Part shown: in pieces, positions 2,982 through 47,402 of the stretch
Layout of the letters: every line of letters starts with the position of its first letter
Position numbering within the stretch: the stretch's first letter is position 1
Source of the DNA: a virus
Length of the DNA stretch: 47,402 nucleotides
IMG/VR virus record: IMGVR_UViG_3300049432_000020
Coordinates: 1-47,402 of that record
Direction: 5' to 3' (one strand)
Position numbers and translations under genes: made by a program
Notes under the pieces: model-generated
Databases searched by the model: none
What the model saw: only the letters and a program-made list of their open reading frames with translations
Told to the model about the DNA's origin: nothing

Positions 2982-3685
2982 CCGCCAGATACCGCTACCA
3001 TCGCGGCCTGCAAGTCGCTGCCGACGTCTACCAGGACGACACCGGCCGAACGATCACCCTCGAAGGCGTCAGCCACGTCGCCGACGCCGACTTCTGGCTC
3101 GCACTATCCAGCCGGCTAGCGTTCGCCGAAGGTAACAACGGCGCCGAGATCCACTTCGAAGGCGTCGGGAAAGACGTCGAGAACCCGCCAAAGCTAGGAC
3201 TCGACTACGCCGCGTTTGCTGAATCGCTCGGGCTGGTCGCCCAAAAACCCGGCCTAACCTACCGCGATACGTGGAAGCGCACCGATATAGAACTGTCCGA
3301 AATCCTGGCCCACATCAGCCCCGAACGGCTCGCCAAGCACGAAAAGACCGCAGCCGAAGCCGAACACATGCTGCTGCACGCCGCCGAGTCGCGGGCCTTC
3401 CGACGCGGCCTGCACTGGGGACTGATCATCATACTCGCGATCTACTCGGGATCAAGGCTGCGGACGTCAACGTTCGGCGTGCCCGCGTCCGTGATACTGG
3501 ACAGGCGGAACATGCTCGCCGCCTGCGCCGCAATGAACACCGACCGGGACGTCGTCGCCGTATGGGGCGCTAACCATCTGCCGGGCATCGGGAAGCTGCT
3601 GCGCCGAGCTGGGTTCAGGAGGGTCTCCCGGCACTGGTCGACGGCGATCACACCCCCGGCTAAGAGGGGTGCCCGGAGCCTGTAG
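2978..3685 (+). CDS. TraB/TIKI-like domain protein (235 aa)
   Basis: The C-terminal part carries VVAVWGANHLPGIGKLLRRA, with H200 in a G-x-x-H-x-x-G-I context. Together with the upstream RNMLAA motif this is the signature I associate with the TraB/PrgY/TIKI superfamily of putative membrane-associated metalloproteases. The N-terminal IHFEGV segment may supply the second motif. A hydrophobic stretch (LHWGLIIILAIYSG) near residues 147-160 could be a membrane segment. The family's role in phages is unsettled; relatives act on peptide pheromones or Wnt. It ends its operon and is followed by an intrinsic terminator. Family membership is inferred from motifs only. Confidence 0.55.
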   Translation: MTARYRYHRGLQVAADVYQDDTGRTITLEGVSHVADADFWLALSSRLAFAEGNNGAEIHFEGVGKDVENPPKLGLDYAAFAESLGLVAQKPGLTYRDTWKRTDIELSEILAHISPERLAKHEKTAAEAEHMLLHAAESRAFRRGLHWGLIIILAIYSGSRLRTSTFGVPASVILDRRNMLAACAAMNTDRDVVAVWGANHLPGIGKLLRRAGFRRVSRHWSTAITPPAKRGARSL

Positions 3686-3710
3686 GATAAACGTCGCTGG
3701 GGATAGCTCA

Positions 3711-3747
3711 AGAAAAGGGGTCGACCATAAGGTCGGCCCCTTCTTTT
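3711..3747 (+). terminator. Intrinsic terminator after the TraB-like gene
   Basis: A 12-bp stem (3715-3726 with 3731-3742, one G-U pair) with loop ATAA is followed by CTTTTG. It ends the rightward array that began near 47039. Confidence 0.85.
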
Positions 3748-3769
3748 GTGCCTTACTGGCGGGTAGGTA

Positions 3770-3853
3770 GTTTGAACCGCATAAACTAAGTACACGGCCC
3801 GGCGTGTCTAAGTAGCCATGTAGGTAGTGCTGGTACGTTTGACCCGTAGCAAC
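3770..3853 (+). promoter_or_regulatory. Two operator-like 17-mers before the 3903 gene
   Basis: GTTTGAAC-C-GCATAAAC lies at 3770-3786 and GTTTGACC-C-GTAGCAAC at 3837-3853, both resembling the dispersed operator. Each follows a copy of GTAGGTAGT (3763-3771 and 3820-3828), so the segment looks like a diverged tandem duplication. A clear -10/-35 pair was not assigned. The rest of the 217-bp gap 3686-3902 holds only the terminator and a Shine-Dalgarno (GGAAGG near 3889). Confidence 0.5.
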
Positions 3854-3902
3854 ATTCTTCGCCCTGTTGGGGGGCCACGCCCGTTGGAAGGTCTCGAATA
3901 AA

Positions 3903-4562
3903 ATGATCACAAGATGCTGCCCCGCCTGCGCCCGTAGGCACGCTCAACTCATTAGCGCTAACTGCCCCGTCTGCCAGGGATACGGCACCGTCACCCTCGG
4001 CGCCGCCGCCCTGTCCATGCACGAACCCGCCACCGTCTCGACCGCCGTCGAAATCGCGATCGAAGCCGGCTCCCGCACCATCGACACGAAACTCACCCTC
4101 TCCGATGACCGCATCGACCCGCTGCGGTTGGTCATGGAAACCCTCGCCGACGCCGGCATCATCAACATGCCCACCAGTGGCAGGTCGAAGGCACTCGCGC
4201 CCCGCCGCCGCCTGCACCTGGTCCCCGACAACGCCGTCTCGCCACTGGACCTCGCCGCCGAATACGTCCCCACCGCCACCGAACGCGACCACACCCTAAC
4301 CGCCGCCCCCGCCTACACCTACCAAGAGCACGAACGCCCCAACGCTAGGGGCCTGCCCGTCCTCTCAGCGAACGGCTACCCGTCCCACACCGCCCGCATC
4401 ACCGACCCCATGACCCCCGGGAACGACACAGCCGAAACACACCGGCAGCGCCGCAACCAGCACCGCAACGCCGTCGTCCTCGTCGAAGCCGCCCCCAAAG
4501 TCGTGTCCATCAAAGCCCGCCAGGAAGCGAAGAAGGATGTCGTCAGGAAAATCGCCGCATGA
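3903..4562 (+). CDS. Hypothetical protein with N-terminal zinc finger (219 aa)
   Basis: The ATG at 3903 is preceded by GGAAGG. Residues 5-26 contain CCPAC and CPVC pairs (ITRCCPACARRHAQ; SANCPVCQGYG), a zinc-finger-like motif. The remainder is rich in Ala, Thr and His and looks partly disordered, ending in a basic helix (SIKARQEAKKDVVRKIAA). It begins the second left-arm operon behind two operator-like sites and overlaps the HNH gene by 4 bp. A nucleic-acid-binding role is plausible; no family recognised. Confidence 0.65.
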   Translation: MITRCCPACARRHAQLISANCPVCQGYGTVTLGAAALSMHEPATVSTAVEIAIEAGSRTIDTKLTLSDDRIDPLRLVMETLADAGIINMPTSGRSKALAPRRRLHLVPDNAVSPLDLAAEYVPTATERDHTLTAAPAYTYQEHERPNARGLPVLSANGYPSHTARITDPMTPGNDTAETHRQRRNQHRNAVVLVEAAPKVVSIKARQEAKKDVVRKIAA

Positions 4563-5071
4563 GAACCCCCGACGACCTCCGCAAATCCATCGACAAACGC
4601 ACCCAGCCCGGCGCTAACGGTTGCCTGATCTGGACCGGGGCGCTCGACTCGGACGGCTACCCCAAGATCAACGTCGGCCGGGAAGTGATCAACGGGCCAG
4701 ACAAGCGCCGCCAGGTTCACCGCGTTAACTGGGAACTGATCAACGGCCCCGTCCCAGCCGGGTACGAACTCGCCCGGCACGGCTGCACGAACCGGCGCTG
4801 CATCGAACCCCTGCACCTGACACTCAACGAGTACAAAGGCAAAGCCGGGCGAATCGCGCAGGATCAGAACATCGACCCGACCGTCTACCGCTGCGGCCAT
4901 GACCGCACCCCCGAGAACACCTACCTCAGCGGCGACTATCCCTACTGCAAGACCTGCAGCAAGGCCCGATCCCGCGAACGATGCCGCCGCTGGCGCGCCC
5001 GCCACCCGGACAAGACCCGCGAATACAACGAAACCCGACGCACCGCCCACAAGACAGGAATCGCCGCATGA
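4559..5071 (+). CDS. HNH endonuclease (170 aa)
   Basis: The N-terminal half matches the HNH_3 type. C-L-I-W-T-G-A-L-D-S-D-G-Y is followed by the VHRVNWELINGPVPAGYELA helix-strand, then RHGCTNRRCIEPLHLTL. The first His lies in HRVNW and the metal-site His in RHGC and EPLHL. A C-terminal zinc ribbon follows (YRCGHDRTPENTYLSGDYPYCKTC) with a strongly basic tail. Such proteins are either free-standing homing endonucleases or packaging-associated nicking nucleases. This one is far from terL, so a homing or selfish role is at least as likely. It overlaps both neighbours by 4 bp. Confidence 0.85.
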   Translation: MRTPDDLRKSIDKRTQPGANGCLIWTGALDSDGYPKINVGREVINGPDKRRQVHRVNWELINGPVPAGYELARHGCTNRRCIEPLHLTLNEYKGKAGRIAQDQNIDPTVYRCGHDRTPENTYLSGDYPYCKTCSKARSRERCRRWRARHPDKTREYNETRRTAHKTGIAA

Positions 5072-8656: not shown

Positions 8657-8661
8657 GCCCC

Positions 8662-8693
8662 TCCCACACGGCCCGGCCCGTTCCGGGGATGGT
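8662..8693 (+). promoter_or_regulatory. Late promoter b (portal)
   Basis: TCCCACAC at 8662 and GATGGT at 8688-8693. The motif starts exactly 38 nt before the portal ATG at 8700, so the transcript is predicted to start at or next to the start codon. Confidence 0.7.
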
Positions 8694-8699
8694 GGGGGC

Positions 8700-10295
8700 A
8701 TGGTTGTTAAAGCAGAGCCGGAAATCGGCACACCGGGCGGCATCGCGATCAATGCCGAATCGAAGTCGGCGTCGTCGTTCGTGATTGAGCCGCTGGACCC
8801 GAACCCCGATCTGCACTTCCCCGCGTCGATCGCGGTCTACGACGAAATGCGCAGCACTGACGGGCAGGTCGGGTCACTGTTGTCCGCGATTAACCTGCCG
8901 ATCCTGGCCGCGCGCTGGCAACTGACGGGCGCGAACGTCCGCCCTGAGATCATGAAATTCGTGCAAACCGAACTCGGTTTGGAAGTCCCCGACGAAGCCC
9001 TCGAACGGCGCCGGGGCCAGGGTATTGTCTGGCTTGATCACCTGGAATCGGCTTTGCTGGCGTTGCCGTTCGGGTTCATGCCCTTCGAGCAGGTCTATGA
9101 GGCAGGCCCGCCCACCAGTGAGCAGGAAGGCATCGGCGAGAACATGCTGCTGCACCTGCGGAAGCTCGCCCCGCGCCTGCCCCGCACGATCTCCACGATC
9201 CATGTCGGCCGCGACGGCGGTCTCGCCGGCATCAGTCAGCCCCCGCTTGATCCGAAGGCGAAGGATGAAATCTTCATCCCGGTCGAACGCCTGGTCTACT
9301 ACTGCCACAAAAGGGAAGGCGCCGACTGGTCGGGCCGGTCCATCCTGCGGACGGTCTATAAGAACTGGATGATCGGGGACAAGCTGCTGCGGTTGTCCGC
9401 GCAGATCGTCGAGCGTAACGGGATGGGCATCCCCGTCGTGAAGTACGACCCCGCGCAGGTCCCCAAGACGCAGGCCGATCAGATCGTGCAGGACCTCCGC
9501 GCCGGAGCGACGGCGGGCGTGTCACTGCCCCCGGGAACGACGCTGGAACTGCTCGGCGTGACCGGGTCCACGGTCGACCCGTTGCCGCACATGAAGTACC
9601 ACGACGAGAAGATCGCCGAGAGCGCCCTCGCGATGTTCAAAACGTTGGGCCATGACAGCGGCGCCCGGTCGCTGGGGGACACGTTCGTCGATATCTTCAC
9701 GCAGGCCGTGCAGTCCATCGCGAACTACTTCGCCAGGGTCGCGACCGAACACATTATCAGGGATCTCGTCGAACTGAACTTCGGCCCCGAAGAACCCTAC
9801 CCGACCCTGACGGCCGGCGACCTGTCGGCGAACCGGGCGATCACCACGACCGCGCTGAAGGAACTCGTCGACGCGAAGATCATCGTGCCCGACGAACCCC
9901 TCGAAGCGTTCATGCGCTCCGCGAACGGCCTGCCCGCCGCCGACCCCGACACCGCCAGGGCCGAAGCCGCTGCTGCTGCCGGGACTGATCCGGCCGATGA
10001 CCTGCTGAAGCGGGCGAACTTCGCCGGCACCATGATCAGGTCGGGCTTCGACCCTGCGGCGTCGATGGAAGGCGCCGGCCTGCCCGAGATCAAGCACCTT
10101 GGGCTGTTGCCGGTCACGCTGCAGCCCCCGGCCGCTGGCACGGACCTCGATAACGCCGTCGACCCCGCGGCGGCGACAGCAGGCCCGCAGTCGTCCCCTG
10201 CGCAGTTGGCCGAAGGCGCGCATCCGAAGTTGTCCCGGCTCGAAGCGATCATGACCGAACTCGCCGAGTACCGGGCCGGGAACCATGTGCGCTAA
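8700..10295 (+). CDS. Portal protein, Mu gp29-like (DUF935 type, 531 aa)
   Basis: This forms the dodecameric portal at one capsid vertex. The sequence follows the Mu gp29/DUF935 pattern: DGQVGSLLSAINLPILAARW near residue 60, FGFMPFEQVYE near 125, IPVERLVYYCHKREGADWSGRSIL near 195-220, then YKNWMIGDKLLRLSAQIVERNGMGIPVVKY. The C-terminal region is Ala-rich. Position between terL and the MuF gene is classical. It overlaps the MuF gene by 11 bp. Confidence 0.93.
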   Translation: MVVKAEPEIGTPGGIAINAESKSASSFVIEPLDPNPDLHFPASIAVYDEMRSTDGQVGSLLSAINLPILAARWQLTGANVRPEIMKFVQTELGLEVPDEALERRRGQGIVWLDHLESALLALPFGFMPFEQVYEAGPPTSEQEGIGENMLLHLRKLAPRLPRTISTIHVGRDGGLAGISQPPLDPKAKDEIFIPVERLVYYCHKREGADWSGRSILRTVYKNWMIGDKLLRLSAQIVERNGMGIPVVKYDPAQVPKTQADQIVQDLRAGATAGVSLPPGTTLELLGVTGSTVDPLPHMKYHDEKIAESALAMFKTLGHDSGARSLGDTFVDIFTQAVQSIANYFARVATEHIIRDLVELNFGPEEPYPTLTAGDLSANRAITTTALKELVDAKIIVPDEPLEAFMRSANGLPAADPDTARAEAAAAAGTDPADDLLKRANFAGTMIRSGFDPAASMEGAGLPEIKHLGLLPVTLQPPAAGTDLDNAVDPAAATAGPQSSPAQLAEGAHPKLSRLEAIMTELAEYRAGNHVR

Positions 10296-13294: not shown

Positions 13295-13304
13295 AACCAC
13301 CCCG

Positions 13305-13333
13305 AAGCGCCCGGCACTGGCCGGGCGCTTTTT
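13305..13333 (+). terminator. Intrinsic terminator of the rightward moron
   Basis: A perfect 11-bp stem, AAGCGCCCGGC (13305-13315) with GCCGGGCGCTT (13320-13330), loop ACTG, followed by TTT. It closes the cassette immediately before late promoter c. Confidence 0.9.
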
Positions 13334-13351
13334 CGTGCCCAGAAACAGCCT

Positions 13352-13383
13352 TCCCACACGCCCGGGCCGGGCCGTTGCACCCT
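13352..13383 (+). promoter_or_regulatory. Late promoter c (protease/scaffold)
   Basis: TCCCACAC at 13352 and CACCCT at 13378-13383. The motif starts exactly 38 nt before the ATG at 13390. No Shine-Dalgarno is seen before that ATG (CACCCTGCCCTT), consistent with a leaderless mRNA. Confidence 0.75.
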
Positions 13384-13389
13384 GCCCTT

Positions 13390-14493
13390 ATGACTATTGA
13401 GACGACGACCATCAAGGGCGTGCAGCTTGTCCGGGCTGGGACGTGGGGCGGGATGACCGGGCAGTCGACGATCACCCCGGCGCACCTGGCCGACGCCGTC
13501 GCCGCGTACGGTGACCCAGAGATCGACCATGCCGTGATCAAGATCGGGCACGACGGGGACTTGAACCTCGCGACCGGGCACCCCGCGGCGGGCTGGGTTG
13601 AGAACCTGAAGCTTTCCGATGACAAGCAGACCTTGATCGGGGATCTCGTTGACATGCCGGCGAAGCTCGCGGCGATCATGCGGAAGGCGTACCGCCGCCG
13701 CTCGGTTGAAATGTCCCTGGGCGTGACGACCCCGTCGGGGAAGAAGTACGCCGCCGCGCTGACCGGGTTGGCTTTGCTTGGGGCGAAGGCCCCGGCCGTG
13801 AAGGGCCTCGCCGACGTGTTGGAGTTCTATGCGTCCGAGAACCCGGGCACCGATGACGAGTCGACCCGGGACCAGGTCGTCGCGTTCGCCGTCGAAGGTG
13901 AGCCGGACACGGCGCCCGTCCCACACGCGCCCGACGGCGCGGGTAACGGTGGGGATGGAAGTAATACACCTGACGAAAGGGGCGCCGACGTGGCACTCTC
14001 TGAAGCACTGAAGAAGAAGCTCGGCCTGCCCGACGACGCAACTGACGAGCAGGTCGAAGCCGCGCTCGAAGCCGCTGAACTCGCCGCACCAGCCGCCGAG
14101 CCTGAAACCCCCGCCGCACCCGCCGAGCAGGCACCCGCAGCCCCGGCCGCACCCGTCGACGGTAAGACTGAACTCGCCGAAGGCGACGTCGTCAAGGTCT
14201 CGAAGGTCGTCTTCGCTGACATGCAGGCGCAGCTTGCCACGCTCACCACCGAGCGCGCAGCCGACCGCAAGAACAAGGCCCTCGACAACGCCATTGCTAC
14301 CGGCCGCATCAGCCCGGCCGAGCGCGTACAGTTCGCCGCCGTCCTCGACGCCAACGAAGAAGCCGGCATCACCCTGCTCTCGTCCCTGGCCCCCCGGATC
14401 GCGACCATCGAACTCGGCGCCGACCACGCCCCGCAGGCCGACGCGGACGCCGACAAAGAACTTCTTCGCCTGGCCGAAGAAGCCGGAATCTGA
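13390..14493 (+). CDS. Mu I-like capsid maturation protease with scaffold domain (367 aa)
   Basis: Residues 1-155 resemble the phage Mu I-protein protease (VQLVRAGTWGG; HAVIKIGHDGDLN; PAAGWVENLKL; KAYRRRSVEMSLGV). The rest is an acidic Ala/Pro-rich region and a coiled coil (DMQAQLATLTTERAADRKNK), typical of scaffolds. It sits directly before the decoration and capsid genes. The ATG at 13390 is preferred over an upstream TTG because of the 38-nt promoter spacing. An internal promoter, Shine-Dalgarno and GTG at 13990 should also yield the scaffold alone. Confidence 0.88.
   Translation: MTIETTTIKGVQLVRAGTWGGMTGQSTITPAHLADAVAAYGDPEIDHAVIKIGHDGDLNLATGHPAAGWVENLKLSDDKQTLIGDLVDMPAKLAAIMRKAYRRRSVEMSLGVTTPSGKKYAAALTGLALLGAKAPAVKGLADVLEFYASENPGTDDESTRDQVVAFAVEGEPDTAPVPHAPDGAGNGGDGSNTPDERGADVALSEALKKKLGLPDDATDEQVEAALEAAELAAPAAEPETPAAPAEQAPAAPAAPVDGKTELAEGDVVKVSKVVFADMQAQLATLTTERAADRKNKALDNAIATGRISPAERVQFAAVLDANEEAGITLLSSLAPRIATIELGADHAPQADADADKELLRLAEEAGI
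13919..13950 (+). promoter_or_regulatory. Late promoter d, internal to the protease gene
   Basis: TCCCACAC at 13919 and AACGGT at 13945-13950 lie in the protease-scaffold linker region. The predicted start near 13957 is about 33 nt before the internal GTG at 13990, with GAAAGGGG between them. Confidence 0.65.
13990..14493 (+). CDS. Scaffold protein from an internal start (167 aa)
   Basis: GTG at 13990, in frame with the protease gene, is preceded at 7-nt spacing by GAAAGGGG (13975-13982) and by late promoter d. The product starts VALSEALKKKLGLPDDATDEQ and contains the acidic linker and coiled coil without the protease domain. In phage Mu the scaffold Z is likewise made from within gene I by an internal start, so the parallel is strong. 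Expression is inferred. Confidence 0.75.
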   Translation: MALSEALKKKLGLPDDATDEQVEAALEAAELAAPAAEPETPAAPAEQAPAAPAAPVDGKTELAEGDVVKVSKVVFADMQAQLATLTTERAADRKNKALDNAIATGRISPAERVQFAAVLDANEEAGITLLSSLAPRIATIELGADHAPQADADADKELLRLAEEAGI

Positions 14494-14526: not shown

Positions 14527-14916
14527 ATGGCTATGTTTGGCAATGCTGACCAGGCTTTTCAGGTCTTCAGTGACCCGGCAGCGACGACCTGCAAGGCGTC
14601 CGGTGCTATCACCGGTAAGCGCTTCGTGAAGCTCGTCGCGGGCGGCACCTTCCAGCAGCCCAAGGTCGCCCTGTGCGGCGCGGGCGAGCAGGCGTTCGGC
14701 GTCGCAGCCTACACCGTCGCCGATGGCGAGTCGGTGACCGTCGTTCACGACAACACCTACACCGTCACCGCGGGCACGAACCTGACCGCCCCGCTTGAGA
14801 TCCAGTCCGACGCCACCGGCAAGGCAATCGCCCTCGCCGCTGGCAAGCGTCTCGGGTCGATCTACTCCGATGCCGTCGCCGCTGGTGACGCAGCCGTTCG
14901 CCTGACCGGCCTCTAA
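14527..14916 (+). CDS. Capsid decoration protein, DUF2190-like (129 aa)
   Basis: A small beta-rich protein (VFSDPAATTCKASGAITGKRFVKLV; AFGVAAYTVADGESVTVVHD) between scaffold and major capsid. Both fold pattern and position match DUF2190-type head decoration or fiber-like proteins that stabilise the mature capsid. GAAAGG precedes the ATG. Confidence 0.8.
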   Translation: MAMFGNADQAFQVFSDPAATTCKASGAITGKRFVKLVAGGTFQQPKVALCGAGEQAFGVAAYTVADGESVTVVHDNTYTVTAGTNLTAPLEIQSDATGKAIALAAGKRLGSIYSDAVAAGDAAVRLTGL

Positions 14917-14934: not shown

Positions 14935-15819
14935 ATGACTCTGACCTACCCCGCAGGCGCCCCGACCACGCTCGGCACCCGCCTGACCGTTGACCGGCTG
15001 CTGAAGTCCCCGACCGTGCTGCAGAAGCGCATCGTGCCGGACAATACCCCGTTCCTGTCCGAGCTTCTGTTCCGGCCCGGCAGCACCGACTCGGGCACCA
15101 TCATCTACGCCGAGTCCGAAACTGAGGACCGCTACCCTAGCCGTGGCGACATTCAGGAAATCGCGCCGGGCGCCGCTTACCCGATGGTCGATTCCGAAGA
15201 AGGCGCGGACAAGGTTGCACTGTCGACCAAGTTCGGTGCCGGGTTCGTCGTCACCGACGAAGCGAAGCGACGGAACAACCTGAACGTCATCGCGAAGGGC
15301 ACGCAGAAGGTCCGCAACGCCCTGCTGCGTCAGGACGCCGCCCGCTGCCTGGCCGTCTTCGAAGCGAAGGTACCCACCGTACCCAGTGTGGGCGCCTGGA
15401 CGACCACGAAGATCTGGAAGACCGACCTGCTGCAGGCAAAGGCCACCATCGCCGGCCTGCGCCTGGGTTACGCCCCGGATACCGTGCTGATCAGCCCGGC
15501 GACCGAGACGAAGCTGCTGCTGCTCGATGACCTGCAGAACTGGTCCCCGCGCGAGAACAAGGCCCTGAACCCGCTCTACGCCCCCAGCATTGCCGGGCTG
15601 CTCGGGTTCAACTGGGTCGTCAACGAGTTCGTCGATGACGATCAGGCGATCCTGCTGCAGACCAACGTGACCGGCGCGAACATCATCGAGCAGGACTACA
15701 GCGTCCGCGTCGCCCGCGAGGAAACCCGCGGCCGCGACGTCGTGATCGCCGACAAGTGGTCCGTGCCGATCATCGACGAGCCCGGCTCTGCGCTGGTCAT
15801 CACCGGAATCGCGTCCTAG
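14935..15819 (+). CDS. Major capsid protein (294 aa)
   Basis: Position after protease/scaffold and decoration genes, size, and sequence support an HK97-fold capsid subunit. Segments include LLSKSPTV-like LLKSPTVLQKRIVPDNTPFL, SEEGADKVALSTKFGAGFVV, and the C-terminal NIIEQDYSVRVAREETRGRD. TTAGGAAAA precedes the ATG. Alternatives are unlikely given the module order. Confidence 0.92.
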   Translation: MTLTYPAGAPTTLGTRLTVDRLLKSPTVLQKRIVPDNTPFLSELLFRPGSTDSGTIIYAESETEDRYPSRGDIQEIAPGAAYPMVDSEEGADKVALSTKFGAGFVVTDEAKRRNNLNVIAKGTQKVRNALLRQDAARCLAVFEAKVPTVPSVGAWTTTKIWKTDLLQAKATIAGLRLGYAPDTVLISPATETKLLLLDDLQNWSPRENKALNPLYAPSIAGLLGFNWVVNEFVDDDQAILLQTNVTGANIIEQDYSVRVAREETRGRDVVIADKWSVPIIDEPGSALVITGIAS

Positions 15820-17768: not shown

Positions 17769-17788
17769 CCGGGCGGACACGCGCCCCG

Positions 17789-17820
17789 TCCCACACGCCC
17801 CGAACGCCCCGGGCAATGGT
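17789..17820 (+). promoter_or_regulatory. Late promoter e (tail genes)
   Basis: TCCCACAC at 17789 and AATGGT at 17815-17820. The motif begins exactly 38 nt before the ATG at 17827 and drives the sheath/tube genes. Confidence 0.72.
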
Positions 17821-17826
17821 GGTCTC

Positions 17827-18057
17827 ATGAGCGGCAGCATACGACTACACAACCCGGGCCAGTTCGAGCAGGTCATCGACGACGCCGGTCACGTCCTGGC
17901 GGGCGGCGAAAGCCGTGTCGTGGACGAGACCGACGCTTACACGAACCTTCTGATCGAGCGCGGCGTCATCCTGTCCGCGCCGTCTGAACCGAGCCTGATC
18001 GCCAGGCGCAAGCAAAAACCCCCCACGCCGGCTGACGGCACGAAGGAAGGTAACTGA
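17827..18057 (+). CDS. Small DUF2635-like protein ahead of the sheath (76 aa)
   Basis: A 76-aa protein (IRLHNPGQFEQVIDDAGHVL; AYTNLLIERGVILSAP) directly before the sheath gene, like Mu gp38 (DUF2635), which occupies the same place and has a similar V-x-D-x-x-G...LLxxG layout. Role unknown; probably tail assembly. Confidence 0.65.
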   Translation: MSGSIRLHNPGQFEQVIDDAGHVLAGGESRVVDETDAYTNLLIERGVILSAPSEPSLIARRKQKPPTPADGTKEGN

Positions 18058-20004: not shown

Positions 20005-20067
20005 GTTGTGGGACGGTTTCCCTCTCGTTCGGCCTGCTCAGTGCCAACACGGAAGCCGTCCCACAAC
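20005..20067 (+). repeat. 17-bp inverted repeat overlapping late promoter f
   Basis: Bases 20005-20021 (GTTGTGGGACGGTTTCC) pair with 20051-20067 (GGAAGCCGTCCCACAAC) with one G-U pair and a 29-nt loop. The right arm contains the TCCCACAA box of late promoter f. With the hairpin at 19962 it fills the 205-bp gap between tube and chaperone genes. Confidence 0.85.
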
Positions 20068-20090
20068 CATGTCTAGGCCCGGGCGATGCT
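20059..20090 (+). promoter_or_regulatory. Late promoter f (tail assembly chaperones, tape measure)
   Basis: TCCCACAA at 20059 and GATGCT at 20085-20090. The predicted start near 20097 leaves a leader of about 52 nt with AAAGGGAA before the ATG at 20149. Confidence 0.68.
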
Positions 20091-20148
20091 CAGTGGACAG
20101 GACCGGCCGACCCGCGACCGGGCACTGAGCATAAAGGGAATTGGACAC

Positions 20149-20724
20149 ATGACTACTTACGGAACACCGGCCCCCGACCTGACCGACGACGGCGACCTGA
20201 CCATCCGGCCGCTGAACGGCGACGAACTCGGCTACGCCCCGGCTGCTGCATCACCGGCAGGGGGCGGCGACTCGCTGCTCGACGAACTGCTCGGCCTCGC
20301 GAAGCAGGCCGTCTCGAACCTTCAGAAGTTCCCCGTCACGCACCGCCCGGGCGGCTGGGTTCTGGAATTTGACGCCGTCGTCGCCGAACACGAAATCAAG
20401 CGCTACCGGAAGGCGTCGATGGGCGCGAAGAAGAAGCCCGAAGACGCCGACATGAGTGTTGGTAACGCGATGGTGCTGATCGAGAAGAACACCGGCATCT
20501 TCAAGCGCATCGACGGGGGCCTGAAGCAGATCAACACCCTCGACGGGTCGCCGCTGCTGCTCAACTCCGAAGAGTTCCTGAACGCCTTCGGGAAGGGCGC
20601 GAACGCGCACGTCGCCGTCCGTAAGTTCCTGGGCGACGCCGAAACGAACGCGCTCGGCCAGTCCGTCCTCAAAGAAGCCGGCTGGGGCGAAGACCTCGAA
20701 CCGCTGGACCCTACCGAAGCCTGA
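20149..20724 (+). CDS. Tail assembly chaperone, short form (191 aa)
   Basis: The ATG at 20149 has AAAGGGAA upstream. Size, acidic N-terminus and position between tube and tape measure mark it as the gpG-like chaperone that coats the tape measure during tail assembly. Central motif: FPVTHRPGGWVLEFDAVVAEHE. A second reading frame in the -1 phase overlaps its end and provides the long form. Confidence 0.85.
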   Translation: MTTYGTPAPDLTDDGDLTIRPLNGDELGYAPAAASPAGGGDSLLDELLGLAKQAVSNLQKFPVTHRPGGWVLEFDAVVAEHEIKRYRKASMGAKKKPEDADMSVGNAMVLIEKNTGIFKRIDGGLKQINTLDGSPLLLNSEEFLNAFGKGANAHVAVRKFLGDAETNALGQSVLKEAGWGEDLEPLDPTEA

Positions 20725-27270: not shown

Positions 27271-27274
27271 GCCT

Positions 27275-27306
27275 TCCCACAACCGGCACCCCCGGCGCTA
27301 CACGCT
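27275..27306 (+). promoter_or_regulatory. Late promoter g (fibre/lysis block)
   Basis: TCCCACAA at 27275 and CACGCT at 27301-27306, 38 nt before the ATG at 27313. It restarts rightward late transcription after the leftward cassette. Confidence 0.75.
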
Positions 27307-27312
27307 GGGGGC

Positions 27313-28275
27313 ATGGCGATTATCGAGACGCTTCGGCTGGCGCTGAAGAAATACACATCAGGCGGCGACCCGCACCCCACCCGGGCCGAGTTCAACACCA
27401 TGATCGACGCGCTCGAAAACAACGTCGGCATGTTCAGCCAGGGCATCACGTCCGCCCGGCCCGCTGCCGGGAAGATCGGCCGCGAATACTGGGACACCGA
27501 AGCGAACCGCAAATACTACGACGACGGGACCGCCTGGCGGGATCTGAATCCGAACGGCGGCGGCGGCGCCGGGGCGAAAGTCACGCCCGGGATCAACGGC
27601 ATCGAAGGCGTCTCGGCCCGCTCCGCGCGCGCTGACCATACGCACCGCATCGACCTTGTGACCGGTTCCGCTCACGGTGCCATGTCCGCCGCGGATAAGG
27701 CGAAGCTCGACACCGCCACATCAGCCGCGACCGGCAACGCCCTGGTGCAGCGCGACGCGAACGCTAGGGTCAGCGTCAACACCCCCACGTCCGCGACGCA
27801 CGCCACCACGAAGGCCTATGTCGACGGGCTGATCACCGAAGCCGCGAACTACGTCGACGCGCAGGTCGGCCCCGGCCTGACCGTGACCCGCCACGAACCC
27901 CTAGACTTTGCCGGCTACGACACCCGCGGCGATATTTGGTCGGTTGACCTGGTCAATAAGACCGTCGTGATCGGGAACGTGTCGATCACTAGGACGGCGT
28001 CGCCGAACATCACGATCGCCGGGGGCGACGTCGCTCACACGATCTTGGGGCAGTTCATCCCGACCAGCCTGAAAGACCTGCGCCCGACCTCTGACGTGGC
28101 GGGCATCCTGAACATGTCGAACATGATCGGCGCCGGGCAGTATGAACGTATTCAGACGTTCGTTAATCAGACGACCGGGCAGATCGGTGTCCGCGGCGAC
28201 GGCACGGCCGGGACGCTGTGGCGTACCGGTGGCAGCGTGAACGTGTCCTTCACCTATCTGATCGATCCGGCATGA
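27313..28275 (+). CDS. Tail fibre-like protein (320 aa)
   Basis: The N-terminal part is typical of actinophage fibre/appendage proteins: GREYWDTEANRKYYDDGTAW (a short collagen-binding-like DGTAWR motif), then GAHGAMSAADKAKLDTATSA and THATTKAYVDGLI, which are trimeric-fibre building blocks. The C-terminal 130 residues are beta-rich. Probably part of the adsorption apparatus. It overlaps the next gene by 4 bp. Confidence 0.78.
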   Translation: MAIIETLRLALKKYTSGGDPHPTRAEFNTMIDALENNVGMFSQGITSARPAAGKIGREYWDTEANRKYYDDGTAWRDLNPNGGGGAGAKVTPGINGIEGVSARSARADHTHRIDLVTGSAHGAMSAADKAKLDTATSAATGNALVQRDANARVSVNTPTSATHATTKAYVDGLITEAANYVDAQVGPGLTVTRHEPLDFAGYDTRGDIWSVDLVNKTVVIGNVSITRTASPNITIAGGDVAHTILGQFIPTSLKDLRPTSDVAGILNMSNMIGAGQYERIQTFVNQTTGQIGVRGDGTAGTLWRTGGSVNVSFTYLIDPA

Positions 28276-29196: not shown

Positions 29197-29200
29197 GCCT

Positions 29201-29232
29201 TCCCACACCGGGAACAGCGCCGCCGCCACCCT
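29201..29232 (+). promoter_or_regulatory. Late promoter h (endolysin)
   Basis: TCCCACAC at 29201 and CACCCT at 29227-29232, exactly 38 nt before the endolysin ATG at 29239. No Shine-Dalgarno precedes that ATG, so a leaderless mRNA is favoured. Confidence 0.78.
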
Positions 29233-29238
29233 AGACGC

Positions 29239-30213
29239 ATGACCTTCTACCTGCTCGACCATAAGCAGCCCAACACGCAGCAGTGGGGATACCCCCGCCG
29301 CGGCGCGTCCCTGTCCGGTACGTGCATCATTCATACCGCCGAGTGCGCGATGGACTTCGACGGCGCCGATAGCTCGGCCGAGAACTGCGCGTCGTTCATC
29401 AACGGCCGTTTCGATTACGGCAGTTATCACACGCTCGTCGATTCTGACTCGATCATCGAAATGATCCCGTATGAATACGAAGCGTGGCAGGACTCCGAAA
29501 CGAACCCCTGGGCCGTTGGCCTGTCGTGCGCGGTGCAGGCTGACAACTGGCACCTGATCCCCGCCGACCGCCGCGACGGGATCTACCGTAACCTCGCTTG
29601 GGCCGCGGCCGACTTCGTGACCTACATGGCAACGAAGGGCATCACGGTCCCACTGCGCAGGATCACCGGGGCGCAGGCGCGCGCGAAAGTCCCCGGCTTC
29701 TGCGCCCACGGCGACTCCGGTGTTGACCGGCACGACCCCGGCGCTCAATTCGACTGGGCGCTGTTCTTCACCTACACCGCACAAGCACTCGGCGGCGCCA
29801 CCCTGGCCCCGCAAAGCACCACGACCAACCCCGATTGGACTGACATGTTTTCATCCCTGAAAGACTTCAAAGAAGCCGTCGCCGAATCCGTGTGGGGCGT
29901 CCTCGAAGGCCCCCGCGGCAAGAAAGCCATACAACAGGCCGTGTGGGGTTTCGCCGGCGGCAAGCGCAACGGCAAGGCCGTGACCGTCTGGCGCGACACC
30001 GTCGATAGCAACACCCTCGGCCGGCAGCTTATCGCCGACGTGGAAGCACTGAAGGAAGTCGTCAAGCAGCAGGCCGCGAACCCCGGCAGCGCCGTCGACT
30101 ACGACGAAGTGCAGCGCCGCGTCGAAGCCGGGCTGCAGGCGAAGGTCGACAGCATCGTCCAGACGCAGGAAACCACGACAACCGAGATCCAGTTGCAGAA
30201 GGACGCCGCCTGA
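29239..30213 (+). CDS. Endolysin, N-acetylmuramoyl-L-alanine amidase (324 aa)
   Basis: An Amidase_2 domain spans residues about 20-185. H32 in IIHTAE is a zinc ligand, YHTLVDSDSIIEMIPYEYEA is the conserved core, and H157 in FCAHGDSGVDRHDPGAQFDW supplies the remaining site together with D166. It cleaves the lactyl-amide bond of peptidoglycan at lysis. The C-terminal 130 residues (helical, ending in a coiled coil) probably bind the wall or oligomerise. It overlaps the holin by 1 bp. Confidence 0.93.
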   Translation: MTFYLLDHKQPNTQQWGYPRRGASLSGTCIIHTAECAMDFDGADSSAENCASFINGRFDYGSYHTLVDSDSIIEMIPYEYEAWQDSETNPWAVGLSCAVQADNWHLIPADRRDGIYRNLAWAAADFVTYMATKGITVPLRRITGAQARAKVPGFCAHGDSGVDRHDPGAQFDWALFFTYTAQALGGATLAPQSTTTNPDWTDMFSSLKDFKEAVAESVWGVLEGPRGKKAIQQAVWGFAGGKRNGKAVTVWRDTVDSNTLGRQLIADVEALKEVVKQQAANPGSAVDYDEVQRRVEAGLQAKVDSIVQTQETTTTEIQLQKDAA

Positions 30214-30530: not shown

Positions 30531-30534
30531 GCCT

Positions 30535-30566
30535 TCCCACAAGCTCGAAGCGCCGTCGGCCACGAT
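30535..30566 (+). promoter_or_regulatory. Late promoter i (outer baseplate genes)
   Basis: TCCCACAA at 30535 and CACGAT at 30561-30566, exactly 38 nt before the ATG at 30573, which lacks a Shine-Dalgarno. Confidence 0.76.
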
Positions 30567-30572
30567 CAACAC

Positions 30573-30893
30573 ATGGCTGACGGCGCTTTGAGTTTTCCCT
30601 TCAGGCTGACCCCGACGGGGTCGGTCGCTACTGTCGAGCGCGGATCAGATGCCGAGATCGACGAAGCGATCGCCGTGCTGTGCCTGACGACCATCGGCGA
30701 ACGCCGCATGCGCCCGACCTACGGCGTGCCCGACCCGGCCTTCGCTGGTTTGCATGTCGGCGACGTGCAGGTCGGTTTGGATGAACACGGCCCCGAAGGT
30801 GTCATCGTCGTCGCGGTCGAGTCTGACCCGATCAACAATTCACAGGAAGTCGCCGATATTACCTGGTCGCGCGACGCGGAAGGCACCGAGTAA
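30573..30893 (+). CDS. gp25/GPW-like baseplate wedge protein (106 aa)
   Basis: This matches the T4 gp25 / P2 gpW lysozyme-fold wedge family: FPFRLTPTGSVATVERGSDAEI, the conserved TIGERRMRPTYGV with the E-R-x-M-R-P core, and a short strand-rich end. It is the sheath-initiation wedge subunit. It overlaps the baseplate J gene by 1 bp. Confidence 0.92.
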   Translation: MADGALSFPFRLTPTGSVATVERGSDAEIDEAIAVLCLTTIGERRMRPTYGVPDPAFAGLHVGDVQVGLDEHGPEGVIVVAVESDPINNSQEVADITWSRDAEGTE

Positions 30894-41716: not shown

Positions 41717-42082
41717 ATGACCTACACCCGCAAGCAGGCAGCACCGGCCCCCACGAAGGCCGAGATTGAAGCAGCCAGACACGAAGCGATCAAAGCCCGC
41801 GCCGAGCTTCACAACCTCACCACCGCCACGACAGCACTCAACGGCAAGATCGCCGACGCGAAAACAGACCTCACCACAGCCCGCGAAACGTTGACGAAGA
41901 TCCTGATCGAAATCGAAGTCACCCGCGCCCAAGCCGAAGCCGTCCTGACCGCGCCCCCCGTCCGCATCCTGCCCCCACCCCGCCACGGCGGCGCCCTCGG
42001 CCTACGCCGCGCAGCCAGGGAAATCGCCGACCACGAAAAAGCGAAGACCAACGCCGCCCGCCGACTCAAGGCAGTCGTCTGA
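41717..42082 (+). CDS. Coiled-coil hypothetical protein (121 aa)
   Basis: Most of the protein (TKAEIEAARHEAIKARAELH; AKTDLTTARETLTKILIEIE) is predicted coiled coil from its heptad pattern, with a basic C-terminus (LRRAAREIADHEKAKTNAAR). Role unknown. AGGAAGAACC precedes the ATG. Confidence 0.72.
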   Translation: MTYTRKQAAPAPTKAEIEAARHEAIKARAELHNLTTATTALNGKIADAKTDLTTARETLTKILIEIEVTRAQAEAVLTAPPVRILPPPRHGGALGLRRAAREIADHEKAKTNAARRLKAVV

Positions 42083-42453
42083 TGCCCGGCCCGAAGCCCC
42101 GCGTCGACCGCGACGAGTTCGCCAGGCTCAACGCCGAAGGCTGGACCATCCCCCGCCTCGCCGAACACTTCAACATCACCCCGACCTACGTCAGCCGGCT
42201 ACGCACGAAACTCGGCATCCGAACCCCCAACCTGCTCGACCTCACACCCGAACGCCTCGCCACCATCGAAGCGATGCTCAACGACGGCATGTCCTTCAAA
42301 GAAATCCATAGGACCGAAGGCGCCGACATGGAAACCCTCCGCAAACACTTCCCCGGCCGCGGCTGGACCCTCGAACAAGCCAACGAACACCGCGCCACCA
42401 TCCGAACCCTGCGGCCCCTGATCCGCCGCAACAACCTCAAAACCGCAGCATGA
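42082..42453 (+). CDS. HTH DNA-binding protein (123 aa)
   Basis: Residues 8-40 (RDEFARLNAEGWTIPRLAEH, NITPTYVSRLRTKLGI) form a clear helix-turn-helix with recognition helix PTYVSRLRTKL. A second helical part repeats the theme (ATIEAMLNDGMSFKEIHRTE). This looks like a small regulator or a terminase-type DNA-binding domain. The base composition is strikingly C-rich. It overlaps both neighbours. Confidence 0.75.
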   Translation: MPGPKPRVDRDEFARLNAEGWTIPRLAEHFNITPTYVSRLRTKLGIRTPNLLDLTPERLATIEAMLNDGMSFKEIHRTEGADMETLRKHFPGRGWTLEQANEHRATIRTLRPLIRRNNLKTAA

Positions 42454-45314: not shown

Positions 45315-45436
45315 TTGCGCGAAGGCTGGACCGGCTGACGTGCCTGGTCATCGGGCATGAATGGTTCTATCAGGACGGCGGCAGGCTGCGGCACTGCTGC
45401 ATCTGCCACAAGCACGAACGGATCACCGAACCATGA
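45311..45436 (+). CDS. Tiny Cys/His protein (41 aa)
   Basis: The ATG overlaps the previous stop by 4 bp. RRLDRLTCLVIGHEWFYQDG and RHCCICHKHERI give a C...H...CC-x-x-CH arrangement, compatible with one zinc site. Similar mini-proteins are frequent in actinophage early regions. Confidence 0.55.
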   Translation: MIARRLDRLTCLVIGHEWFYQDGGRLRHCCICHKHERITEP

Positions 45437-45744
45437 GCGGCGGGCCGGCGTGGCGGCGGGATCATAACCCCGCCGCGCGGCCCCTCGCCTGCAACGGCCG
45501 CTACGGCAAGTCAGGGGCCGAACGTCACCGCCGCGAAGGAACCACCCCCTGCCGGCGTTGCAAGGCGTCAGCGGCGCACTGGGCACGGGAGAAGCGCCGC
45601 GGCGGTCTTAGGCCCCGCAAGCTGGCCCCGTGCGGCACCCCGGCGGCGGCGAACCGGCACCGCAGACTCGGCGAACCCGTCGACTTCGCCTGCTTAGTGG
45701 CCGAAGCGAACTACCGCACCGAGCTACGGCAACGCGCCGCCTAG
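45433..45744 (+). CDS. Protein with duplicated Cys/RHRR zinc-like repeat (103 aa)
   Basis: Two similar halves are visible: LACNGRYGKSGAERHRREGT with PCRRC, and APCGTPAAANRHRRLGEPVD with a final C. Each reads C-G-x...A-x-x-RHRR-x-G-E/T, as in short actinobacterial Cys motifs of unknown function. The second half lacks the closing CxxC. Probably nucleic-acid- or metal-binding. Confidence 0.68.
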   Translation: MSGGPAWRRDHNPAARPLACNGRYGKSGAERHRREGTTPCRRCKASAAHWAREKRRGGLRPRKLAPCGTPAAANRHRRLGEPVDFACLVAEANYRTELRQRAA

Positions 45745-47195: not shown

Positions 47196-47402
47196 ATGAA
47201 ATACACCCCGACCGAGTCCGACCGGCTGACCGGTATCCGAGTCCGCCAGCTACGCAAGCAGCACGGCGAAACGCAGGCCGACACCTGCGCCCGTTCCGGC
47301 GTCGGCTTCGGCTACGCCAGCCTGTCCCGGGTCGAAGAAGGCAAGCGTCACCTGACGATCCCCGAAGCGACGAAACTCGCCGCCTACTTCAACACCACCG
47401 TC
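47196..47402 (+). CDS. XRE-family HTH repressor-like protein, N-terminal part (continues at base 1)
   Basis: ATG at 47196 opens a frame that runs off the right end and continues in frame at the left end. Joined through the 147-bp repeat it encodes 158 aa. Residues about 10-68 form an HTH_3-type domain: RLTGIRVRQLRKQHGETQ, then SLSRVEEGKRHLTIPEATKLA. In lambda-cI-like and Cro-like regulators these are the scaffold and recognition helices. The gene is the second in a short operon behind the operator-type promoter at 46953-46999, so it may autoregulate. It is the best candidate for the protein binding the dispersed 17-bp operators. That assignment is inference; a general early regulator is the alternative. 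Confidence 0.8.
   Translation, partial: MKYTPTESDRLTGIRVRQLRKQHGETQADTCARSGVGFGYASLSRVEEGKRHLTIPEATKLAAYFNTTV
47256..47402. repeat. Right copy of the 147-bp terminal direct repeat
   Basis: This is the second copy of bases 1-147, offset by 47255. The one mismatch (G at 47382) changes residue 63 of the repressor-like protein to Ala; the left copy encodes Ser. The unit genome length implied is 47255 bp. Confidence 0.95.

Follow-up and report, generated by a model that had tools for sequence, protein, structure and literature searches.

A predicted nested scaffold gene with its own late promoter inside the protease gene of Arthrobacter myophages

Introduction

The procapsid needs scaffold in excess over protease, and herpesviruses and tailed phages share capsid assembly logic. 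In phage lambda (C/Nu3), the scaffold is nested in frame in the protease gene (PMC5513430 mentions a scaffold-protease fusion), and the locus described here resembles it in its in-frame nested scaffold. The lambda C protease belongs to a family different from that of the present protease, and we know of no internal promoter for lambda C/Nu3. Mu-type phages are thought to obtain the scaffold excess through internal translation starts. To our knowledge, a promoter within a phage protease gene is not known, and our literature search returned no phage case of one, such a search being weak as evidence of absence.

In the Mu-like phage KS10, the scaffold lies in frame within the protease gene and is made via an internal start (PMC2628397), and in PaMx73, also Mu-like, the nested scaffold starts at Val177 (PMC4378225). 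The Arthrobacter phage gene resembles Mu I/Z, KS10 and PaMx73 in encoding a protease of family PF10123 with a C-terminal scaffold, whose predicted in-frame start has its own Shine-Dalgarno sequence. The difference is that those systems were reported with an internal translation start only, whereas the Arthrobacter phages appear to add a late promoter.

In HSV, UL26.5 has its own promoter inside the UL26 protease coding region, and the scaffold is abundant in B-capsids while UL26 products are scarcer (PMC2949831); PMC4498786 cites Liu and Roizman 1991 for the UL26.5 promoter within UL26. The likeness to UL26/UL26.5 lies in a scaffold gene that shares reading frame and 3' end with the protease gene and in a promoter inside the protease codons, for which the evidence here comes from sequence. 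HSV differs in using a eukaryotic promoter and 3'-coterminal mRNAs, whereas the promoter predicted here is of bacterial type and its unit would reach the decoration and capsid genes.

Results

Genomic context and domain organization

The window, that is, the whole stretch of DNA analysed (47,402 nt), is a 47.4-kb IMG/VR record of an Arthrobacter myophage. Apart from one mismatch (position 127), its ends (1-147 and 47256-47402) carry the same 147 nt, a repeat to be expected if the assembly is circular or terminally redundant. In the structural region, 72 Arthrobacter phage records matched at 60-80% DNA identity, and Vibakivirus, Marthavirus and Ayohtrevirus were among these relatives. The protease-scaffold gene (13390-14493, + strand) starts with ATG and encodes 367 aa. 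The protein matched Pfam PF10123 Mu-like_Pro (E=1e-13, 52 bits with a cut-off of 25.2) over residues 63-358, covering both the protease and the scaffold parts, and the PHROG head maturation protease phrog_3894 (6e-91). PF10123 is named after Mu I, and on these matches the protein is a member of the Mu I/Z kind. The search of bacterial and archaeal genomes returned no relative. The gene is a single CDS in the annotation of every relative whose gene table was read.

In the AlphaFold2 model of the 367-aa protein (mean pLDDT 72, pTM 0.39), the domains were mostly confident and the linkers were not. Residues 1-148 (13390-13833, + strand) formed a mostly confident beta-rich protease domain, in which H54, S105 and E107 are invariant. 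The linker follows (residues 149-200, 13834-13989, + strand), and residues 149-197 are predicted to be disordered (pLDDT < 50). Since the C-terminal helical part of the model begins at 197, codon 201 lies at a domain boundary. The nearest viral folds included annotated prohead proteases and protease-scaffold proteins. Sequence and fold searches of the PDB gave no meaningful match to the protein; with the full model (pTM 0.39), no PDB fold reached E<=0.001, and no herpesvirus assemblin (S21) was among the 50 matches listed.

A class of late promoters with a 39-nt spacing

In eleven sequences (the window and relatives), the distance from the base preceding the box to the ATG of a long ORF was exactly 39 nt for 36 TCCCAC[AC] boxes, while the next commonest offset accounted for at most 3 sites. 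The sites were picked by box and ATG only. With the A of the ATG as +1, all 36 had A-11 and all 36 had T-7, neither of which was used for selection; in bacterial -10 elements, no other positions are as well conserved as these two. The fixed 39-nt spacing and the invariant A-11/T-7 indicate a promoter class with its own -35-type box, usually giving leaderless mRNA. By A-11 and T-7, the -10 element is of sigma-70 type at 36/36 leaderless sites and at 20/20 of the internal sites described below, but TTGACA with a 16-18 nt spacer was not found, the box being TCCCACA at -38 to -32.

The pattern TCCCACM-N20-A-N3-T occurred at 11 sites in the window, all on the + (coding) strand, compared with a chance expectation of 0.43 and a maximum of 3 in 100 shuffles. 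Most of them head operons. TCCCACA was found 39 nt before the ATG, on the + strand, at the predicted leaderless promoters of the portal gene (8661-8700), the gene at 27313 (27274-27313), the endolysin gene (29200-29239) and the baseplate gene (30534-30573). The full-length protease gene has a promoter of this kind at 13351-13390 (+ strand), with TTCCCACA as -35 and CACCCT as -10 (13378-13383); its predicted +1 is the A of ATG 13390, and it is without an upstream ACAC. Other members of the class are separated from a start by 50-90 nt, with a leader that carries a Shine-Dalgarno sequence; examples are the sites before the tail chaperone (20058) and the terminase small subunit (6613).

A motif of this kind might also be an operator at which a phage repressor halts transcription. 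In actinophages, stoperators are repeated short directional sites, which speaks for this reading. We nevertheless consider this highly improbable, because the 39-nt distance to starts, A-11/T-7 and the purine at +1 are promoter properties, and 11/11 window sites share the coding strand and mostly stand at the head of operons. A promoter class remains the preferred reading.

Class sites were also seen in the early/middle region (window 39511 and 45754; L009:13167 and L009:20667), and they precede a possible non-coding stretch and genes without assigned function. An inverted repeat, GACGACGGGC..GCCCGTCGTC, lies 3' of site 39511. Pfam and PHROG scans of the middle- and late-region proteins revealed no sigma factor. 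Weak regulator candidates were a D5-like DNA-binding protein (42082-42453, phrog_664/323) and a partial WhiB-like protein (45361-45744), either of which could read the TCCCACA box. A literature search found no promoter study of these phages, and the word "promoter" is absent from a survey of 46 Arthrobacter phages.

Just 5' of the protease promoter, an intrinsic terminator (13304-13331, + strand) consists of a 12-bp stem followed by a T-rich tail, with an RNA fold of -25.2 kcal/mol (z -3.4). Such a terminator would insulate the protease unit from the portal unit. A similar hairpin is present in some relatives, not all, and insulation is therefore left out of the general claim.

A member of the class inside the protease gene

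The internal late promoter (13906-13957, + strand) lies within the linker codons. It comprises an upstream element GACACG (13906-13911, + strand; -51 to -46), the -35-type box GTCCCACA (13918-13925, + strand), kept in all close relatives, the -10 element AACGGT (13945-13950, + strand) with invariant A-11 and T-7, and a predicted transcription start at G 13957 (+ strand), whose register is set by the 36 leaderless promoters. The preliminary description had proposed a late promoter at 13919-13950, and TCCCAC...T indeed occupies these positions. The promoter was present in 21/21 non-redundant sequences, the box being a variant in one of them; within this set, proteins are down to 33-44% identical to that of the window, and linker length varies around the promoter. 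A-11 and T-7 were found at 20/20 internal sites and a purine at +1 at 19/20 (A-11/T-7 21/21 in the codon analysis), counts that are not independent trials, as the phages share ancestry.

A simple sigma-70/terminator scan missed both the internal promoter and the terminator at 13304-13331; it is blind to the former because the -35 is not TTGACA. A loose pattern, GTCCCACA..GAAAGG..GTG, was also run over viral contigs and was dropped, the matches listed being mostly unrelated.

In the close relatives with a readable gene, the internal box is translated in frame as V-P-(H/Q), I (L038) and P (L005) being rare variants; in the linker peptide, V177 is nearly invariant and D173, T174 and P178 are fully so. 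This pattern would suit selection on a DT-x-x-VP(H/Q) peptide, for example a protease autocleavage site, with the DNA match as a by-product. The codon analysis covered 21 non-redundant sequences and 257 columns with at least ten four-fold codons, over which mean third-base identity was 0.457 (sd 0.159). The six most conserved four-fold columns were codons 187, 177, 176, 178, 174 and 201, which belong to -7T (187), the internal start (201), the upstream element, and the box together with the bases flanking it on the 5' side. At codon 187 the residue varies among G, A, S and P, while the third base is T in all 21; Pro178 is CCA in 20/21, although CCA makes up only 7% of Pro codons. That the promoter bases are the most conserved synonymous positions indicates selection on the DNA, not only on the peptide. 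In synonymous resampling (same proteins, family codon usage), an internal-type site arose anywhere in the gene in 0.2-1.1% of draws, whereas the observed site is exact in 20/21; the 21st, that of Klausavirus DrYang (33% protein identity), differs by one base in the box (GTCCCCCA) and has A-11, T-7, a Shine-Dalgarno sequence and ATG.

At 17776 and 20046, the DNA string is found again with unchanged spacing, there in intergenic DNA. RACAC-N7-GTCCCACA-N20-A-N3-T matched three window sites (13906, 17776 and 20046) and none in 100 shuffles. This recurrence, together with the disorder of the peptide region, again points to selection on the DNA. The fixed third bases (GTC, CCA, ACG, and NNT where the residue is G/A/S/P) and the copies in non-coding DNA before the sheath and tail genes leave peptide selection with a negligible share of our belief, and a DNA signal in the linker codons is the reading carried forward.

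An internal Shine-Dalgarno sequence and start codon

Downstream of the predicted +1, GAAAGGGG (13975-13982, + strand) forms a Shine-Dalgarno sequence kept across relatives as a DNA signal, and a GTG at 13990, codon 201 of the protease gene, would start a nested scaffold gene (13990-14493, + strand) encoding 167 aa (17.1 kDa). The preliminary description had given both elements: GAAAGGGG and its coordinates proved correct, and GTG 13990 is in frame with ATG 13390. A Shine-Dalgarno sequence and an in-frame start lie 30-51 nt past the predicted +1 in 21/21 sequences (GTG 14, ATG 7). GAAAGG is conserved in three different reading phases, and in L004 and L005 it is shifted relative to the window, so the peptide changes while the DNA signal persists. 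Thus conservation in every close relative examined, synonymous constraint and exchange between GTG and ATG support promoter, Shine-Dalgarno sequence and start as DNA signals. The likeness to a Mu-like gene I with an in-frame internal start, drawn in the same description, is upheld by the PF10123 match and by a start after the protease domain in 21/21.

The 167-aa product is acidic (pI 4.3). The preliminary claim that it contains only an acidic linker and a coiled coil is too narrow: in the model, two helices make up a short N-terminal piece, and there are also a disordered stretch rich in Ala and Pro, one helix of 32 residues and three shorter ones. We infer that this protein acts as scaffold. 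The nested gene, apparently a hidden one, is listed in none of the gene tables of relatives that were read.

Unlike DrYang, the other distant family members (L041-L056; Gordonia, Corynebacterium and Rhodococcus phages) lack the internal promoter. In L040, an intermediate, the protease-scaffold gene (3468-4775) has an internal Shine-Dalgarno sequence and ATG (codon 228) without the promoter box. This points to the internal start as the older feature and to the promoter as a later gain.

The ACAC subclass and the predicted transcription unit

ACAC at -50 to -47 was present in 20/20 internal promoters, 15/15 promoters of pre-sheath/sheath/tube genes and 12/12 of the tail chaperone, but in only 2/19 protease, 0/19 portal and 3/11 fibre/lysis/baseplate promoters. 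The internal promoter is, by its sequence, of the type heading other major structural operons, unlike the protease's own promoter. In the window, the ACAC-subclass promoter of the pre-sheath, sheath and tube genes is intergenic (17776-17827, + strand), with a box-to-ATG span of 17788-17827 and +1 on ATG 17827; that of the tail assembly chaperone gene (20046-20097, + strand) has a leader of about 52 nt. The chaperone promoter implies a gene start near 20149, not 20086, the ATG at 20086 of a longer ORF being inside the promoter. The upstream element is a copy of the box's ACACG, placed 16 nt further upstream, and might offer a second point of contact to the factor that reads TCCCACA.

No further class site was found between the internal promoter and 17776 in the window, and none before the capsid gene in relatives. 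The genes for the decoration (cement) protein (14527-14916, + strand; PF09956) and the major capsid protein (14935-15819, + strand; PF25209, phrog_1650) should therefore depend on the internal promoter or on read-through from 13390, and the internal promoter should drive scaffold, decoration and major capsid protein together. An internal promoter had been proposed as dedicated to the scaffold; the promoter stands, but its predicted unit includes the two shell genes.

This layout raises the possibility that the promoter serves the decoration and major capsid genes, with the GTG unused or incidental and scaffold released only by cleavage of the full-length protein. In its favour, neither the window nor the relatives have another promoter of the class from 13957 up to the capsid gene. 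We judge it unlikely, as GTG or ATG is kept in 21/21 and GAAAGG through phase shifts, beyond what the peptide would require, and the third base of codon 201 ranks in the top six for constraint. Moreover, several distant family members that lack the promoter have internal starts with a Shine-Dalgarno sequence, and internal starts are reported for the Mu-like phages KS10 (PMC2628397) and PaMx73 (PMC4378225).

Discussion

These results very probably describe a nested scaffold gene with its own late promoter, Shine-Dalgarno sequence and GTG, an arrangement that would yield more scaffold and shell protein than protease. A late promoter in the codons of the disordered linker would start transcription at about 13957. 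With ribosomes loading at GAAAGGGG, translation would begin at GTG 13990 and yield an acidic, helical scaffold of 167 aa that lacks the protease; the transcript would run on into the decoration and major capsid genes. Full-length protease would come from its own leaderless transcript starting at 13390. The internal promoter most likely fires more strongly, because it has the ACAC subclass sequence common to the sheath and chaperone operons and mostly absent from protease and portal promoters, and scaffold and shell proteins would then exceed protease.

The conservation of the predicted signals suggests that they are used. The ACAC subclass is probably stronger than the non-ACAC subclass, and promoter class and gene layout together argue for more scaffold than protease. 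We somewhat favour a two-class late promoter code, in which a basal class serves catalytic or low-copy genes, an ACACG-added class serves high-copy structural operons, and the copy in the protease linker sets the ratio of scaffold and capsid to protease by transcription. The basal class in such a code consists of TCCCACA and a -10 element and is mostly leaderless.

The expression arrangement appears to be new for phages and to work like UL26/UL26.5, without evidence of common descent. The promoter code is simple and predicts operon starts to the base in these phages. The locus also offers a clean case in which the "conserved peptide" of a disordered linker is really a DNA signal. As a clade of tailed phages appears to have a promoter nested in the protease gene, the same solution would be found on both sides of the phage-herpesvirus divide.
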